From: a virus
Reading direction: 5' to 3' (one strand)
Virus record (IMG/VR): IMGVR_UViG_3300028025_001340
Span: 1-37,532 of that record
DNA length: 37,532 nt
Below are positions 4,745 through 37,532 of the stretch, one piece after another (position 1 is the stretch's first letter; every line of letters begins with the position of its first letter). Position numbers and translations under genes: made by a program. Under the pieces are notes generated by a model that made no database searches, was not told the origin of the DNA, and saw only the letters and a list, made by a program, of their open reading frames with translations.

Positions 4745-5044
4745 ATGGAAAACTATCGTACTCAGACGGTTCATGCGGACGGTGATGGTGGGATTATCAT
4801 CGAAACTAATCAAGATATATCTGACATCCTAGAGCGCAATAAAGTGCTTCAGGAAGTTGACAAGGCTAGGACAGGAGCAACAGAAGATTTACATTTAATA
4901 GGCTCAATACCTTTTACGGCTATTGATAAGCTCAATCAAATGGGAATCATGCGTGGATTTGCGATAATGGACGAGGTAGCTTTTAAGAAGTGGCTCAACC
5001 ATCCTGAACAAGCACCGTTAAAGATATATCGAGGAACAGTATGA
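4745..5044 (+). CDS. Conserved hypothetical head-region protein
   Basis: A 99-residue protein of unknown function, just after the capsid terminator with gaggg as ribosome site. No signal peptide or membrane segment is visible. Its stop overlaps the start of the glycosyltransferase-like gene (ATGA). The position between capsid and adaptor suggests a head-completion or accessory role, but nothing in the sequence proves it. Confidence 0.65.
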   Translation: MENYRTQTVHADGDGGIIIETNQDISDILERNKVLQEVDKARTGATEDLHLIGSIPFTAIDKLNQMGIMRGFAIMDEVAFKKWLNHPEQAPLKIYRGTV

Positions 5045-5694
5045 GAGTTGGCGTTTGTATTCCATGTAGAGACGAAGTACATACAGGTTTTGCGTTTGAT
5101 TTTGCTAGGATGGCTGCACATGATGCGTCTGTTCGATGCAAGGACGGTAAGGGTGGTCTAAGCCTCTATACGATGCCTGGAACGCTTATATTCGATCAGC
5201 GTGAGAAGTTAGCTCAGGTAGCATTAAAAGAGGGCTGTGACGCTGTTCTGTACATTGATAGCGATATGCGTTTTCCTCCTGATTTGATAACGATTATGTT
5301 ATCTCGTGAGGTTGGAATTGTAGGTGTCAATGCTGTCACTAGACGTAAACCATGTATGCCAACGGCTAAACTGTTAGTTAAGTCTGAGGATGAGAAGGGT
5401 ATTCGCCATCATTGGTCTAATGTCGATTCTCGTGGTAAGGAAGGTATTGAGAAGATTACTGCTGTTGGTTTTGGGGCGGTAATGATTCGTAAGGAAGTGT
5501 TTGAGAAGGTTCCTCAGCCGTGGTTTGATGCAGGATGGGGGCCAACTGGTGTAGTAGGTGAGGATGTTCACTTTTGCGTTAAAGCTGGTGACAATGGCTT
5601 TGATACTTGGGTGGATCACGAGCTGTCTATGCACATCAAGCACGTAGGTACGTATGAGTACGGCTGGGATGATTTTGAGCAACTAGAGGAATAA
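5041..5694 (+). CDS. GT-A type glycosyltransferase-like protein
   Basis: A 217-residue protein with a glycosyltransferase A pattern: an N-terminal strand with a CIPCRDE nucleotide-sugar-binding start, a DSD metal-binding triad at residues 73-75 (VLYIDSDMRFP), and a later Gly-rich acceptor segment (WGPTGVVGEDVHF) with GEDVHFC in the place of the usual catalytic ED. It would transfer a sugar from a nucleotide donor. It sits inside the head-tail module, coupled to the genes on both sides, so the acceptor may be a virion protein or a surface glycan. Substrate is unknown. Confidence 0.75.
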   Translation: MRVGVCIPCRDEVHTGFAFDFARMAAHDASVRCKDGKGGLSLYTMPGTLIFDQREKLAQVALKEGCDAVLYIDSDMRFPPDLITIMLSREVGIVGVNAVTRRKPCMPTAKLLVKSEDEKGIRHHWSNVDSRGKEGIEKITAVGFGAVMIRKEVFEKVPQPWFDAGWGPTGVVGEDVHFCVKAGDNGFDTWVDHELSMHIKHVGTYEYGWDDFEQLEE

Positions 5695-18865: not shown

Positions 18866-19051
18866 ATGTCTGACATTAACTTATCTGACGCTCAAATAGA
18901 AGCTATAGCTGAACGTGCTGCTGAGGTAGCATTTAAGAAGATTTACGAGGAAGTCGGTAAGTCTGTCGTTAAGAAGATATTCTGGATAGTTGGTGCAGGT
19001 GCATTATTCCTATTAATGTGGTTAGGCTCTAACGGTCAGATTCCAAAATGA
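18866..19051 (+). CDS. Small single-pass membrane protein
   Basis: A 61-residue protein: an amphipathic helix (SDAQIEAIAERAAEVAFKKIY) followed by one membrane segment (IFWIVGAGALFLLMWL, about residues 38-53). It starts 2 bases after the fibre gene and overlaps the next start by 4 bases. First gene of the lysis region, so it could be a pinholin-like or antiholin-like regulator, but it has no diagnostic feature. Confidence 0.6.
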   Translation: MSDINLSDAQIEAIAERAAEVAFKKIYEEVGKSVVKKIFWIVGAGALFLLMWLGSNGQIPK

Positions 19052-19569
19052 TTGAAGTAGCGGTAGCCTTTGCTGCTGCGGAGGCTGCTGTTGCTGGAGT
19101 CAAGAGAGCCATCGCACTAGGAAAAGAGATACAAGAGTGTTATCACGACATCTCTACGTTCTTTGAGAAACAAGCCGAAATTAAGTCTGTTGCTGTTGTT
19201 GATACGGTAGCTAAGAAGAATCCTAATATAACGCTATCGCAAGCCACTAAGCAAGCACTAGACGCTACCTTTGCATCACGTAAGCTATATCGGCTAGAAG
19301 TCGAGCTACGTGAAATGCTTATCTACAATAACTCAGGTGAGACAGGTCTATATGAGGAGATGTGCGCTCGTAGAGATGCTATTGTAGCTGCTGCTAAAGA
19401 AGAAGCTGAGGAAGAAGCTCGTATAGAGCGTATGAGGCTCAGAGAGATCGCTAGAAGGCGTGCTGAGAGGATTCAGTTAATTCAGAACATTATTGCTGCT
19501 ATCGTTGGCACTGCTTGCGCTACGGCAATTATTTATTTTATTTGGAGTATGTTTCACTGGAGGGAATGA
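19048..19569 (+). CDS. Coiled-coil protein with C-terminal membrane anchor
   Basis: A 173-residue protein with a helical N-terminal region, a long Glu/Arg coiled coil (about residues 110-145, with EEAEEEARIERMRL), and a C-terminal membrane segment (IIAAIVGTACATAIIYFIW). The stop overlaps an ATG at 19566, the old start of the holin gene. It may be a membrane-anchored partner in lysis or in DNA entry. No family recognised. Confidence 0.6.
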   Translation: MIEVAVAFAAAEAAVAGVKRAIALGKEIQECYHDISTFFEKQAEIKSVAVVDTVAKKNPNITLSQATKQALDATFASRKLYRLEVELREMLIYNNSGETGLYEEMCARRDAIVAAAKEEAEEEARIERMRLREIARRRAERIQLIQNIIAAIVGTACATAIIYFIWSMFHWRE

Positions 19570-19622
19570 TGATTGGACTAGACGCAATTTTAAATATCGG
19601 TGGAAAGTTAATTGATAAGTTA
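19566..19622 (+). pseudogene. Remnant of an original holin start, cut by the endonuclease insertion
   Basis: From ATG 19566 (ATGA overlap with the upstream stop) or 19569 the frame reads MIGLDAILNIGGKLIDKL, then runs into antisense endonuclease sequence. GGKLIDKL matches ASKLIDKI near the start of the intact holin at 20067, whose next residues are LPDPEQ. So an ancestral gene starting MIGLDAIL and continuing into PDPEQ was probably split here. The long open frame beyond 19622 is only the antisense shadow of the endonuclease gene. Confidence 0.55.
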
Positions 19623-20075
19623 ACTTTGCAATGCTTGCTCTGGCGTTTTTCCTGCTCTCAATCTAAGATAAACAGTGTAATAGGACAAACCAGTTTTTTC
19701 ACACCATTCAGATATAGTCAAAGTCTCTCCAAAAGCGGTAATAAAACGTGTGTTTCGTCTATTTTTAGCTTGATCTTTTCTATTAGCCCATTTGCAATTT
19801 TCAGGGTTATATCCCTTATTGTTATCAATACGCTCAATGCAAAGATTATCTGGTCTTTCTCCCATATCGCTCAAAAAATTAGCAAAGTCAAGCCAACTGT
19901 CACAAATTGTTATGCCTCTGCCTCCGTAATTTTTGTAAGCCTTGCATTTTGGACTCGTACATCTTTTTTTAATTCCTTCCCATATTTGATACGTAGAGGA
20001 TCGTTTTCCTCGCAAAGCGTGTCCATGTGAAAAACTTGGGTTTTTAGAACCAGAAAGGTCTTTAATATGCTTCAA
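19620..20075 (-). CDS. HNH-type homing endonuclease, antisense in the holin locus
   Basis: A 151-residue protein on the minus strand, alone among plus-strand lysis genes. It carries a pattern of free-standing phage endonucleases: YQIWEGIKKRCTSP, YKNYGGRGITICDSW, MGERPDN, ERIDNNKGYNPENCKWA and a C-terminal helix-turn-helix (about 115-150, EWCEKTGLSYYTVYLRL) for DNA recognition. No ATG fits; TTG at 20075 has gggag 7 bases upstream. Its first 9 bases overlap the holin start, and its stop lies at the edge of the holin remnant. Likely a selfish homing gene that cuts uninterrupted holin loci. Confidence 0.8.
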   Translation of the reverse strand: MKHIKDLSGSKNPSFSHGHALRGKRSSTYQIWEGIKKRCTSPKCKAYKNYGGRGITICDSWLDFANFLSDMGERPDNLCIERIDNNKGYNPENCKWANRKDQAKNRRNTRFITAFGETLTISEWCEKTGLSYYTVYLRLRAGKTPEQALQS

Positions 20076-20465
20076 GCACTTCTCCCATTTGCATCAAAAT
20101 TGATAGATAAAATTCTACCTGATCCAGAGCAAAAAGCAAAGGCTCAATTAGAGTTAGCAAAATTAGCTCAAGACGGTGAATTAGCTAAGATGGCTAATGA
20201 CTCCAAGATGTACGAGGTTGAGCAGACTAATCTGACTCAGCGTATGCAAGCTGACATGGCTAGTGATTCTTGGTTATCTAAGAATATTCGTCCATTAACG
20301 CTAATCTACATACTTGTTGCTTATTTGATATTAGCTATCCTTGATGCTGCTTTAGTTGATATAGCTGACTCATTTGTTGAGCTACTTGGTCAATGGGGTA
20401 TGTTGGTGATGTCGTTCTATTTCGGTGGTCGCACACTTGAAAAGATTATGGATATGAAGAAATGA
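20067..20465 (+). CDS. Holin, three membrane-segment type
   Basis: A 132-residue protein. A charged N-terminal half (KLIDKILPDPEQKAKAQLEL, then GELAKM) precedes membrane segments in the last ~55 residues (LTLIYILVAYLILAIL, then WGMLVMSFYFGG), matching phage holins of the 3-TM family. It opens the inner membrane so the endolysin reaches the wall. Its first codons overlap the antisense endonuclease gene, so the present start differs from the old one at 19566. The stop overlaps the endolysin start (ATGA). Confidence 0.8.
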   Translation: MLQALLPFASKLIDKILPDPEQKAKAQLELAKLAQDGELAKMANDSKMYEVEQTNLTQRMQADMASDSWLSKNIRPLTLIYILVAYLILAILDAALVDIADSFVELLGQWGMLVMSFYFGGRTLEKIMDMKK

Positions 20466-20926
20466 AGCTATCAGAAAACTTTAGCCTACAAGAATTAACT
20501 AAGAGCGAGACTGCTTTACGCTTTGGCATGAAGAATGAGCCAACTGAAGCAGATATACAGAATCTAAAGACATTATGCGAGAAGGTACTACAGCCTATTC
20601 GTGATAACTTCAAAACTGGCGTTAAGGTGAATTCAGGCTATCGTCATCCAGAGGTTAACGCTAAGGTCGGAGGATCGAAGTCCTCTGATCATTGCAAAGG
20701 ACAGGCTTCAGATATAGAGATACCTGGTATTCCTAACGCTGATCTAGCGCAGTGGATTTCGGATAACCTAAGTTATACGCAGTTAATATTAGAGTTTTAT
20801 ACTCCTGGCGTTCCTGATTCCGGCTGGGTTCACGTATCTTACGATGCTAAGAATCTAAAAAAGCAAAATTTAACCGCAACTTCTAAGAACGGAAAGACTA
20901 TTTATTCAAATGGATTAATAGCTTAG
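20462..20926 (+). CDS. Endolysin, M15 peptidase
   Basis: A 154-residue zinc peptidase that cuts peptide bonds in peptidoglycan. Family M15 motifs are complete: SGYRHPEVN, SSDHCKGQASDI with His77 and Asp84 as zinc ligands, LILEF with Glu111 as probable catalytic base, and GWVHVS with His124 as third ligand. There is no signal peptide, so export depends on the holin just upstream. A lone catalytic domain of this length is typical for phages of Gram-negative hosts. Confidence 0.92.
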   Translation: MKLSENFSLQELTKSETALRFGMKNEPTEADIQNLKTLCEKVLQPIRDNFKTGVKVNSGYRHPEVNAKVGGSKSSDHCKGQASDIEIPGIPNADLAQWISDNLSYTQLILEFYTPGVPDSGWVHVSYDAKNLKKQNLTATSKNGKTIYSNGLIA

Positions 20927-33571: not shown

Positions 33572-34799
33572 ACCACAGCAGTTAATCCTGCATGATGCTC
33601 TTGATAACAATAGATTTGTTGTTGGAGTTATGCACAGAAGATTCGGGAAAACTGTGGCTGCGATTAACCAGCTTATCAAAAAAGCAATAGAGTGTGAGCT
33701 AGATGATCCTAGATTCTGCTACGTTGCTCCTACTTACACACAAGCCAAGAGGATAGCGTTTGACTACTTGGTTAAGTTTACAAGACCATTGGGTGCTAGC
33801 GTAAACATCTCTGAGCTGCGTGTTGACTTTTGGGGTAGAAGAATCTCGTTGCATGGTGCAGATAATCCAGATTCATTACGTGGAACTTACTACGATGGAT
33901 GTGTCCTAGACGAAGTAGGAGACATGAACCCAAAGGTATGGAATGAGGTTCTTAGACCGAGTCTGAGTGATAGATTAGGCTGGTGCTTATTTATCGGAAC
34001 TCCAAAAGGTCGGAATCATTTTGCAGACTTCAGAGATCGAGCTGAGGAAACTGATGGGTGGAAGTTGCTAGAGTTTAAAGCTAGTGAAACTGGGATTATT
34101 CCTGAGTCAGAACTTAACGCAGCTCGTGCTGAGATGGGCGAGGATAAGTACCAACAAGAGTTCGAATGTAACTTTAACAGTGCCGTAGAAGGAGCTTACT
34201 ATGGGCAGATTATCAACGATCTTGAGGCAAAGGGTCGTATCACCACTGTTGACCGTGATGATCTTTGCAAGTCTTATGTGGCTTGGGATTTGGGTATGGG
34301 TGACTCTACTTGCTTGTGGGTGGCTCAACTGGTTGGCAAGGAAGTCAGGCTCATTGATTTCGTGGAAAACCACGGGGTCGGGCTTGATTGGTATGTCAAT
34401 TGGCTCAAAGAAAATAGATATGAGCGTTTCGACCAGTACCTTCCACATGACGTTGAAGTCCGTGAGATGGGGACAGGAAAGAGTCGCAAGGAAGTCCTCC
34501 AAGAAGCAGGACTAGAGATTACCGTAGCTCCTAGACTATCTGTGGCTGATGGCATACAGGCAGTGCGTAGGTTGCTACCACGTTGTTGGTTTGATAAGGA
34601 CAAGACTAAGCAGGGCGTTAATGCTTTACGTAACTATCGTAGGGAATATAACGAGAAGCAGAACGTGTACTACGAGAAACCGCTACATGATTGGGCATCT
34701 CACGCTTCAGATAGTTTCAGGTATTTAGCGATAACACTTGACGAATCAGACGATTCATGGTCATCAAATATCACAATTAATACTAAATGGGTTGTATAA
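33540..34799 (+). CDS. terL: Terminase large subunit
   Basis: A 419-residue packaging motor. The ATPase domain has Walker A HRRFGKT (residues 32-38), Walker B CVLDE (121-125) and the coupling motif GTPKGRNHF (153-161). The nuclease domain has an Asp in AWDLGMGDST (Asp250) and the late acidic motif ASDSFRYLAI (Asp391). It cuts concatemers and pumps DNA through the portal. The start at 33540 lies inside the endonuclease gene and has only a weak ribosome site (agcgga). Its last 124 residues are repeated exactly at 3-377. Confidence 0.95.
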   Translation: MSEIIIPYKPRPQQLILHDALDNNRFVVGVMHRRFGKTVAAINQLIKKAIECELDDPRFCYVAPTYTQAKRIAFDYLVKFTRPLGASVNISELRVDFWGRRISLHGADNPDSLRGTYYDGCVLDEVGDMNPKVWNEVLRPSLSDRLGWCLFIGTPKGRNHFADFRDRAEETDGWKLLEFKASETGIIPESELNAARAEMGEDKYQQEFECNFNSAVEGAYYGQIINDLEAKGRITTVDRDDLCKSYVAWDLGMGDSTCLWVAQLVGKEVRLIDFVENHGVGLDWYVNWLKENRYERFDQYLPHDVEVREMGTGKSRKEVLQEAGLEITVAPRLSVADGIQAVRRLLPRCWFDKDKTKQGVNALRNYRREYNEKQNVYYEKPLHDWASHASDSFRYLAITLDESDDSWSSNITINTKWVV

Positions 34800-34814
34800 T
34801 AAGCAAAATATCCG

Positions 34815-34831
34815 CATAGGGTTTAGCTATG
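34815..34831 (+). promoter_or_regulatory. Second copy of the hairpin over the portal start
   Basis: The same catag/ctatg inverted repeat as at 393-409, again covering the portal ATG (34829). It is within the fully identical part of the repeat, so its conservation carries no extra weight. Confidence 0.3.
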
Positions 34832-36922
34832 GATTCAGGACAAGTAAAAGGTATTTTAGAGAACGAGATTGAGAACGCAATCGGATTCATCGACTCTGAA
34901 ACTACTGACGAACGCACGAAAGCACTACAGTATTACTTACGTGAACCTTACGGTAACGAGGTTGAAGGTCGCTCACAGATCGTAACAGGCGAGGTAGCTG
35001 AAGCTGTTGATGGCGCATTGCCACAGCTTCTACGTGTCTTTACGACAACAGAGGACATTGTTTACTTTGAGCCTAAGTCACCTAATGACGAGGAATCAGC
35101 CAAGCAAGCTACTGAATACTGTAATTGGGTGTTCTATCGTGAGAATGATGGTCTGCTGATTCTGCATAACTGGTTTAAAGATGCGCTCCTGCAAAAGACA
35201 GGCGTTGTTAAGTCTTACTGGGATTCGCAAGAAGATGTAGTCAAAGAAAAGTACAAGAACCTAACAGAAGAAGAACTTGCTTTATTGCTATCTGATGAGA
35301 CGATGGAGGTTGTGCGTCAGAAGGTAGAGATGGTAGAGGCTGGTGTTGACGAGATGGGTATGCCGATAATGGCTCCGTCTTATTCTGTTACGGTAAAGAA
35401 GGTTAAGAAGTCTGGTCAGGTAAAGATTGAGAACGTGCCACCAGAGGAGTTCTTGATCTCTAAGTCAGCTAAGACTATTGATGATTCTCCGTTCGTTGCT
35501 CACAGACGTTTAATGCCTCGTAGTGACTTAATCGCTATGGGTTACAGCAAAGACGTAGTTGACAGTCTGCCAACGTATGACGATCTAACCTACAGTCCTG
35601 AGCGTATCGCACGATTCAACCAAGACGAGCAGCCAGATTCCTCGCCTAGCCTAGACTTCTCGATGCAGGTGCTTGAGGTATACGAGTGCTATATACGTAT
35701 TGACGAGGACGAGGATGGTATCGCTGAGTTACGTAGGATTGTTTACTGTGGCTCTGAGATTCTGGATGATGAGGAAACTGACGTTATTCCGTTCCATTCA
35801 ATCTGTCCAATCCCAATCCCGCACAAGTTTTTTGGTCAGTCATTAGCTGACAGAACGATGGACATTCAGTTAATCAAGTCCACGTTAATGCGTCAGACTT
35901 TGGATAACTTGTATCTAACGAACAATGCTCGTGTTGGCGTGGTTGACGGTCAGGTTAACCTGGACGACATGCTTAACGCTACTCCTGGTGGCATTATCCG
36001 TGTTAAGAATCCTAATGCTCTGATTCCAATGCAAGTACCTAGCGTAACTGGTCAAGCGTTCCCAATGTTTGAGTATCTGGACGGTGTAGCAGCAAAGCGT
36101 ACAGGCGTATCAGACGCTAACGCAGGTCTTGATCCAGATATATTATCTAACGTCACAGCAACGGCTGTAGCGGCTATGATGAAGTCTAATAGCGGTAAGT
36201 TGGAGTTGATCGCTCGTGTGTTTGCTGACACTGGCGTTAAGTCTTTGTTCAGAGGTATCTTGCATTTATTGGGCAAGTATCAGGACAAGGCAAAGCTAGT
36301 CCGTATGCGTGGTAAGTACGTACAGTACGATCCTAGAACTTGGGCGAACGAATACGACATTAGCATTAACGTAGGTCTTGGCTCTGGTGACAGAGATCAG
36401 AAGCTGGCTATGTTGCAAATGATTCTAGCTAAACAAGAGCAGATATTGCAGCAGTTCGGCCCATCTAATCCGCTAGTATCGGTAGGTCAGTATCGCACCA
36501 CGTTAGCAAAGTTTATTGAGTCAGCAGGGTTTAAAGATGCAAACGCATTTCTTAACGAGATTACTCCTGAACAAGATGCTGCTCTTGCACAGCCTCAACC
36601 TAAGTCTCCCGATGCACAGGCAGAGGTTGCTCAGATGCTTGCGAACGTTGAACGAGAGAAGATCGCTGCGAAGTCGCAGATTGACTCGGAGAAGCTAAAG
36701 TTAAAGCAGCAGGAACTTGAAGCTCAATATACCCAAAAGGGTTTAGAGATGGCTATGAAGAACCAGCAGCAACAGGCTGACATCAAGATTAAAGAAGCAC
36801 AGTTAGCTGTTCAGCAGTTACAGGCAATTCTAACGATGGATATGGCAGACGAGCAGATGCGTCAAAAGCAAGCTGAGATCGTCTTAAAAGCGATTAAGGA
36901 ACTTGGAGGGCTAGTTCAATGA
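34829..36922 (+). CDS. Portal protein, SU10-like (variant 2)
   Basis: A 697-residue second version of the portal at 407-2500, equal in length and about 98 percent identical in protein, with 12 conservative changes and many silent base changes. Silent changes clearly outnumber replacements, as expected for two natural strains under purifying selection. The stop again overlaps the next start (ATGA), but the next gene is a different one (36919-37254). Confidence 0.93.
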   Translation: MDSGQVKGILENEIENAIGFIDSETTDERTKALQYYLREPYGNEVEGRSQIVTGEVAEAVDGALPQLLRVFTTTEDIVYFEPKSPNDEESAKQATEYCNWVFYRENDGLLILHNWFKDALLQKTGVVKSYWDSQEDVVKEKYKNLTEEELALLLSDETMEVVRQKVEMVEAGVDEMGMPIMAPSYSVTVKKVKKSGQVKIENVPPEEFLISKSAKTIDDSPFVAHRRLMPRSDLIAMGYSKDVVDSLPTYDDLTYSPERIARFNQDEQPDSSPSLDFSMQVLEVYECYIRIDEDEDGIAELRRIVYCGSEILDDEETDVIPFHSICPIPIPHKFFGQSLADRTMDIQLIKSTLMRQTLDNLYLTNNARVGVVDGQVNLDDMLNATPGGIIRVKNPNALIPMQVPSVTGQAFPMFEYLDGVAAKRTGVSDANAGLDPDILSNVTATAVAAMMKSNSGKLELIARVFADTGVKSLFRGILHLLGKYQDKAKLVRMRGKYVQYDPRTWANEYDISINVGLGSGDRDQKLAMLQMILAKQEQILQQFGPSNPLVSVGQYRTTLAKFIESAGFKDANAFLNEITPEQDAALAQPQPKSPDAQAEVAQMLANVEREKIAAKSQIDSEKLKLKQQELEAQYTQKGLEMAMKNQQQQADIKIKEAQLAVQQLQAILTMDMADEQMRQKQAEIVLKAIKELGGLVQ

Positions 36923-37254
36923 ATTACGGAATATCTCCAGATCAAGCAGGTAAGATAGTTGATAGATTGGCAAATGCTAGGAATAATCCTATTACTGCGC
37001 CATCCGAAGCTACTATGCCTTCTAACGGTCAGTTCTTTAAGATGAGCGAAATGGCTGCTCCAGTTGATTTTATGAATGATCCACGTTATCAGCCTATACA
37101 AAGCAATAGTCCTATTTATACGCCTACAATTGAGCAACCACAAGAAGATCAATTTGCAAAGTTTGGAGCATTTGGAGATTTCTTTAGATTGCTTAGTAAT
37201 AGTGGTGGTGTAGCACCTAATGGTCAGTTTGTTAATAGAAACGTATCTAAATGA
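36919..37254 (+). CDS. Extra 111-residue protein present only beside portal variant 2
   Basis: A 111-residue protein inserted exactly between portal and the 76-residue gene, with ATGA overlaps at both ends. The other copy joins those two genes directly with one ATGA. The protein is rich in Asn, Pro, Phe and Ser (SPDQAGKIVDRLANARNN, then EDQFAKFGAFGDFFRLLSNS) and has no recognised domain or membrane segment. A variable minor head or assembly factor is likely. Confidence 0.7.
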   Translation: MNYGISPDQAGKIVDRLANARNNPITAPSEATMPSNGQFFKMSEMAAPVDFMNDPRYQPIQSNSPIYTPTIEQPQEDQFAKFGAFGDFFRLLSNSGGVAPNGQFVNRNVSK

Positions 37255-37481
37255 GTAAAGCAGATTGGGCAGCTCGAATACTTCAAGATGAGCGATTCAT
37301 TGAGGTAATGAACGAGCTAAAAGAATTAGAAATACAGAAGTTTAGAAGTACAGATTACAGCGACATGGAACTACGTGAACAAGCGTATTTACGCCTCCGA
37401 GTTCTTGAGGATATAGAAGGTTATATTCAAGGGCTTACTAACCAAAAGCTCATTGACGCAAAAAGATGGAAGATTTTGTAG
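37251..37481 (+). CDS. Small conserved protein, second copy
   Basis: A 76-residue protein identical to that at 2497-2727, with a few silent base changes. Here it is coupled to the extra gene rather than to the portal. Identity of the protein across two diverged variants supports a needed function, probably in head assembly. Confidence 0.75.
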   Translation: MSKADWAARILQDERFIEVMNELKELEIQKFRSTDYSDMELREQAYLRLRVLEDIEGYIQGLTNQKLIDAKRWKIL

Positions 37482-37485
37482 TCCG

Positions 37486-37504
37486 TATAGGGCGGTTCCC
37501 TATA
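37486..37504 (+). promoter_or_regulatory. Second copy of the 7-bp hairpin before the scaffold gene
   Basis: The tataggg/ccctata inverted repeat of 2732-2750 is kept unchanged in the second variant, although neighbouring coding sequence has silent changes. Confidence 0.45.
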
Positions 37505-37523
37505 TAATTATGGAAATGAAAAC

Positions 37524-37532
37524 ATGAGCGAT
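37524..37532 (+). CDS. Scaffolding protein, first three codons (cut by window end)
   Basis: The window ends after MSD, the same first residues as the scaffold gene at 2770. It shows the second copy continues into the normal gene order. Confidence 0.8.

Follow-up and report, generated by a model that had tools for sequence, protein, structure and literature searches.

An HNH endonuclease gene lying antisense at the start of a phage holin gene appears to be part of a mobile element that supplies its target with a new 5' end. Comparison of metagenome contigs strongly supports the view that this element has entered the holin starts of unrelated phages at least four times, replacing the start of the gene on repeated invasion. 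The original holin start, displaced to the far side of the endonuclease gene, is probably not dead, as it opens a reading frame that selection seems to keep free of stop codons through the antisense strand of the HNH gene.

The window, by which we mean the whole stretch of 37,532 nucleotides analysed, is a 37.5 kb virus record encoding an SU10-type portal, major head protein, scaffold and terminase, as well as a DnaB-like helicase and an Erf-like annealing protein. Its ends overlap (1-2500 matches 34423-36922 with 94.8% identity, 2496-2778 matches 37250-37532 with 97.5%), and the portal proteins of the two end copies (1-2778 and 34423-37532) are 98% identical. This suggests a circular or permuted genome whose assembly ran on past the origin and combined two strains. 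A 111-aa ORF in the portal/scaffold interval (36919-37254) is found in the right-hand copy only, as a strain-specific indel, and had no match in PHROG or isolated-phage searches.

The holin locus and its uninterrupted relatives

The lysis cassette consists, in this order, of an upstream gene, the displaced holin start, the antisense HNH gene, the holin and an M15 peptidase. The features of the locus are as follows:

19048-19569, plus strand: upstream lysis-cassette gene of unknown function, PHROG 32327; stop codon and old holin start overlap as ATGA
19566-19622, plus strand: original holin start MMIGLDAILNIGGKLIDKL, now displaced; strong Shine-Dalgarno sequence; matches uninterrupted holin starts
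19566-20030, plus strand: open frame from the old start, running antisense through the HNH gene in codon register, ending at TGA 20028-20030
19605-19622, plus strand: left KLIDKL copy, the recipient's own
19620-20075, minus strand: HNH endonuclease, 151 aa, TTG start at 20075, PHROG 3377 (E 5.8e-52)
20010-20075, minus strand: codons 1-22 of the HNH gene, with predicted disorder and suppressed synonymous change, lying opposite the holin leader
20052-20058, plus strand: AGAAAGG, probable weak Shine-Dalgarno sequence of the new holin start, spacer 8 nt
20067-20117, plus strand: replacement holin start MLQALLPFASKLIDKIL, travelling with the HNH gene, 90% DNA identity to contig L082
20067-20465, plus strand: working holin, GTA_holin_3TM PF11351 (2.1e-11), PHROG 3427 holin (1e-24)
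20082-20086, minus strand: GGGAG, HNH Shine-Dalgarno sequence, within the new holin codons
20097-20114, plus strand: right KLIDK(I) copy, at the right edge of the element
20462-20926, plus strand: M15 peptidase, probable endolysin, overlapping the holin as ATGA

A sequence-only reading of this DNA had proposed an antisense HNH insertion at the holin start, with the working holin beginning inside the first codons of the endonuclease gene. Both points were confirmed: the HNH gene lies between the displaced start (19566) and the working holin (20067), and the start regions of HNH and holin overlap head-to-head by 9 bp. The old start (DNA ATGATGATTGGA / ATGATGATTGGACTAGACGCAATT...) is preceded by the Shine-Dalgarno sequence GGAGG, and its ATGA overlap with the stop of the upstream gene is as expected for a coupled lysis gene. 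The stop codon of the HNH gene is formed on the complement of a Leu codon of the relic. The working holin opens with MLQALLPFASKLIDKILPDPE, and its beginning reads MLQALLPFASKLIDKILPDPEQ. Each of the two gene starts has its ribosome-binding site inside the codons of the other gene (AGAAAGG in the holin leader opposite HNH, GGGAG in the holin codons), so that they share about 100 bp. The Shine-Dalgarno sequence of the new holin start is weak compared to that of the relic (-3.9 versus about -10 kcal/mol). At the new start, RNA structure was not significantly more stable than in shuffled sequences, and we therefore propose no hairpin model.

Uninterrupted relatives reveal the gene before insertion. 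Eighty of them begin, unbroken, with M[IL]GLDALL.[IV]GGKLIDKLIPDPE or a close variant, and alignment of the holin starts, the check proposed by the earlier reading, indeed shows M[IL]GLDALL.[IV]GGKLIDKL joined directly to IPDPE. An empty site was identified in contig L010, where the counterpart of the upstream gene (61% identity) is syntenic and adjoins an uninterrupted holin. Window positions 19046-19623 correspond to L010 4469-5046 and positions 20097-20449 to 5028-5380, the two alignments flanking the insert overlapping by 19 bp. Among 241 uninterrupted loci (near-copies included), the presumed target GGKLIDKL[IVL]P occurs in 195 and DKILP in none. HNH-free relatives starting with MLQALLPF would have spoken against an insertion, but this objection fails: LLPFA starts without HNH occur in only three contigs (L014, L072 and L077), all of other lineages, and the MIGLDAIL stretch belongs to no unrelated gene. 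The element is present or absent at one conserved site of homologous genes, as for homing-type elements. The uninterrupted holins of L014, L072 and L077 natively start with M..LLPFA.KI.DK, and holins of this type are a possible source of the replacement start.

The endonuclease was assigned to a homing family by matches to PHROG 3377 and PHROG 374 (E 2.7e-47 for the latter), both HNH endonuclease. A Pfam search gave no match, and sequence and fold searches of the PDB gave no significant one; the family carries ERIDN at the DH position of canonical HNH proteins. Among the copies in the window, L082 and L083, dN/dS is 0.06-0.09, which indicates at the sequence level that the gene is maintained under purifying selection. 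The 21 N-terminal residues are predicted to be disordered and are mostly missing in the sister copies described below. In codons 1-22, pS is 0.14-0.28 versus 0.62-0.80 elsewhere, and 0 of 108 other windows were as low; recent recombination confined to this part could be an alternative cause.

Recurrence of the element and mosaic holin genes

The element is known here from metagenome contigs only, as three copies (window, L082, L083) and two sister copies (L094, L095). Contigs L082 and L083 share the HNH (87% and 79-80% identical) and its head-to-head overlap with the holin, and their holins have a start of the same kind (MIQELLPFAAKLIDKILPDPE and MLQELLPFASKIIDKILPDPE, respectively, with the shared pattern MLQ.LLPFA.KLIDKILP). 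The relics differ by contig, with MFPLAALMDVGGKL in L082, MIGLDALINVGGKLV in L083 and MFPLSA (six codons) in L094. The sister copies, with HNHs 67-71% identical in the alignment, lie 45 bp upstream of holins starting with MIGIDTILSIGEKIID[KR]VLP. Their starts have 52 of 60 bases in common, whereas their holin-body proteins are just 40% identical. All four closest relatives of the HNH (67-87% identical) are antisense at holin starts, versus 0 of 76 more distant relatives in the same search. A search of isolated phages returned 1085 records, all below 60% identity, and in the two best-covering holin records of isolated phages no annotated nuclease adjoins the holin. In bacterial genomes a single distant match was found, away from any holin.

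Two of the copies have peculiarities of their own. In L095 (2486-3333), the sister HNH is truncated at the C-terminus and precedes a holin of a divergent type, and no relic is visible; this copy is either decaying or near the ancestral arrangement. In L083 (3466-3943, minus strand), small genes are found between the relic and the 3' end of the HNH gene, and DNA like that of the first of them is present elsewhere in L265. They may represent a composite insertion at the same site.

The holin genes of element-bearing contigs are mosaics. Compared with L082, the window has a DNA identity of 81-87% in the HNH gene and 90% in the replacement start (20067-20117), then 60% in the holin body, and GC content in L082 jumps from 33% to 59% right after the new start. 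The bodies have their closest kin elsewhere. That of L083 is 99% identical to the uninterrupted holins of L262, L259 and L263 (start MIGLDA[LI]LNVG), that of L082 is 95% identical to uninterrupted L180 (start MFPL), and that of the window is closest, at 88%, to uninterrupted L002 (MLGLDALLGIGGKL). Each relic is of the start type seen in the uninterrupted kin of its own body. Relic and body together restore the recipient's gene type in L083 and L082, and the window relic fits the same pattern. A holin-body tree forces four changes of state and rejects a single clade of the window, L082 and L083 bodies (AU p 1.2e-56), so that the element has spread horizontally, independently of the host gene. 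Taken together, the joint travel of HNH and new start, the separate body lineages, the rejected clade and the match between relics and kin point to a mobile element by which the 5' end of the target gene is exchanged. The native terminus lies displaced beyond the nuclease gene in the window, L082, L083 and L094, and the carried terminus restores the target in frame.

The junctions vary. Left relics comprise about 19, 14, 14 and 6 codons, and homology on the right resumes at codon 11 (L083) or 18 (L082), which fits recombination rather than transposition as the presumable mode of entry. The sequence-only reading had left it open whether the insert brought or recreated the beginning of the gene; since the new start is common to three HNH copies with unrelated holin bodies, it was brought and not recreated. 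The repeat of KLIDK on both sides, on which that reading had relied, is real and not due to chance. It did not, however, arise by target-site duplication, since the left copy belongs to the recipient and the right one, in whole or in part, to the element.

The antisense frame of the HNH gene

The frame that begins at the old start is closed by TGA at 20028-20030, 36 nt before the new holin ATG. It can be open through the insert only if the HNH gene avoids the codons TTA, CTA and TCA. In the holin-associated HNH clade (excluding codons 1-16 of window-type copies), these make up 0 of 36 Leu and 1 of 32 Ser codons, that is 1 of 68 as compared to 225 of 555 in control HNHs with GC below 48% (Fisher 3.6e-13; the five HNHs are related, so that neither these counts nor the probabilities below are fully independent). 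In-register antisense stops occur at 0.2 per 100 codons, whereas the two remaining antisense frames have ordinary densities of 5.5 and 6.2. Based on the codon usage of the phage itself, the probability of an open frame is 2.4e-5 for the window, 0.06 for L082, 0.009 for L083 and 7e-4 for L094. The L082 phage rarely uses TTA or CTA, and its open frame alone is thus unremarkable.

The position at which the frame ends is similar among copies. In the window, L082 and L083 its stop is formed by the TCA at HNH codon 16 and precedes the new ATG by exactly 36 nt; in L094 its stop overlaps the new ATG (ATGA). In L083, where the small genes part the relic from the HNH gene, a fresh in-frame ATG abuts the stop of the upstream gene (TGAATG). 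The HNH of L095 has one in-frame TCA. Overall, there is good statistical support for selection that keeps the antisense frame open.

Two other explanations of the open frame have to be weighed, both of which we consider improbable. The avoidance of TTA, CTA and TCA could reflect the codon usage of an original host of the element. Such hosts exist, as the L082 phage uses TTA/CTA for only 8% of Leu, but these HNH genes otherwise strongly favour codons ending in A: Leu TTR codons are 0A:16G, against 130A:27G in other NNR families (p 2e-11). Moreover, TTA/CTA account for 61-63% of Leu codons in the window and L094 phages. Synonymous sites are close to saturation (pS 0.55-0.70), so that an inherited codon usage should have drifted, and the TCA at codon 16 has been kept in all three window-type copies. 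Alternatively, the frame could encode a functional protein, perhaps an antiholin, made of the old holin N-terminus and a hydrophobic antisense tail. It does begin with the codons of a holin start, whose Shine-Dalgarno sequence is strong, and it contains a hydrophobic stretch (maximum Kyte-Doolittle 2.35 over 19 residues). However, its amino-acid identity among copies is just 0.44-0.60 versus 0.74-0.88 for the HNH, its translation has no match in PHROG, and the L083 frame opens with unrelated codons. The low identity suggests that openness, and not a protein, is conserved.

In eight control loci (L099-L178) with HNHs antisense to both neighbours, in-register antisense stop codons are fewer, at 17% versus 35% of Leu/Ser codons, a comparison that is confounded by GC. 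Avoidance of in-register stops may be a wider signature of antisense HNHs.

Nature of the element and comparison with known systems

We regard it as likely that the insert is a free-standing homing-type element composed of an HNH gene and a replacement 5' end of its target gene. Insertion, replacement of the start, repeated independent invasion, purifying selection on the HNH gene and the stop-free antisense frame are seen in the sequences, while we infer cleavage, homing, resistance and translation through the insert. Transfer of the HNH gene along with an entire foreign holin, in which case the relic would merely be the end of the old gene, is very unlikely. The HNH gene does adjoin the holin in all cases, and blastn matches to L082 and L083 run from HNH into the holin body, but identity and GC content change exactly past the new start, the L083 and L082 bodies are nearly identical to those of uninterrupted holins with relic-matching starts, and the window body has such kin in L002. 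For L082 and L083, the drop in identity, the kinship of the bodies and the rejected clade refute whole-holin transfer. A self-splicing intron with an antisense HNH, whose splicing would join the old start to the body and make the new start irrelevant, is least probable of all: the KLIDK repeats flanking the insert would permit in-frame splicing, but no Rfam match was found on either strand with E up to 5, the HNH ORF fills the insert and leaves no room for a ribozyme core, and the replacement start has its own Shine-Dalgarno sequence and is conserved in three contigs with different left junctions. The element was thus not classed with intron-encoded homing endonucleases.

Under the homing model, the HNH would cut holin genes at the conserved GGKLIDKLIPDPE codons, near GGKLIDKLIPDP in the uninterrupted allele. 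Repair from an element-bearing phage would then insert the HNH gene in antisense orientation together with a new in-frame holin start of the form MLQ.LLPFA.KLIDKILP, which would restore the holin and presumably resist cutting. The recipient's own start would be pushed upstream and stay as a relic with its ribosome-binding site. Since the relic keeps this site and a stop-free frame, ribosomes entering there could cross the insert; they would stop at the new holin start or 36 nt before it, keeping translational coupling and avoiding polarity in the lysis operon. With moderate confidence, we favour the interpretation that the complementary strand of this selfish endonuclease gene, placed antisense in an essential operon, has been selected to be transparent to translation, with termination timed just before the replacement start. 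The suggestion of the sequence-only reading that a selfish gene here repairs its target is thereby supported, with the corrections given above.

The closest parallel is provided by the WHO elements of yeast at FBA1, where the 3' end of the gene is replaced and the old end displaced (Coughlan et al. 2020, PMC7282813). In both systems a replacement end for the target gene is carried along with an endonuclease gene, the native end is displaced to the far side, and the target is a chimera with discordant trees. The replacement confers resistance in the case of WHO, and probably also in the phage element; cutting has been shown for WHO, whereas the phage element is known here from sequence. WHO elements encode intein-like proteins that have a zinc finger, and they exchange a 3' end, while the phage element has an HNH enzyme and swaps a 5' end in antisense orientation, with overlapping start regions and an antisense strand that is kept open. 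It was accordingly not counted as a WHO member and only works alike. In fungal mitochondria, mORF hybrids (Allomyces atp6; Glomus atp6, atp9, cox2 and nad3; PMC3630166) similarly arise when a foreign terminus, carried in by a mobile endonuclease ORF, takes the place of the native one in frame and displaces it. These are mitochondrial cases that concern C-termini and LAGLIDADG or GIY-YIG enzymes, unlike the 5' end in the phage, and no antisense overlap of the present kind is described for them. Free-standing homing endonucleases that split phage genes, Aeh1 mobE in nrdA and T4 mobA in gene 60 (PMC2988022), likewise lie within an essential gene whose function survives, but there the target is split into two polypeptides that must assemble, whereas here the lost piece is replaced by the element.

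End replacement by homing elements is therefore already documented for fungal 3' ends. In the open-access literature, we found no phage case of a carried replacement start; what appears to be new here is a phage case that concerns the 5' end of an essential lysis gene and is repeated in separate holin lineages. The element shows a route by which a selfish gene can enter the coding region of an essential gene while its carrier stays viable. The stop-free antisense strand hints at a further adjustment, one that was not expected, to the translation of the invaded operon, and its signature, the avoidance of TTA, CTA and TCA, can be searched for in other antisense selfish genes.
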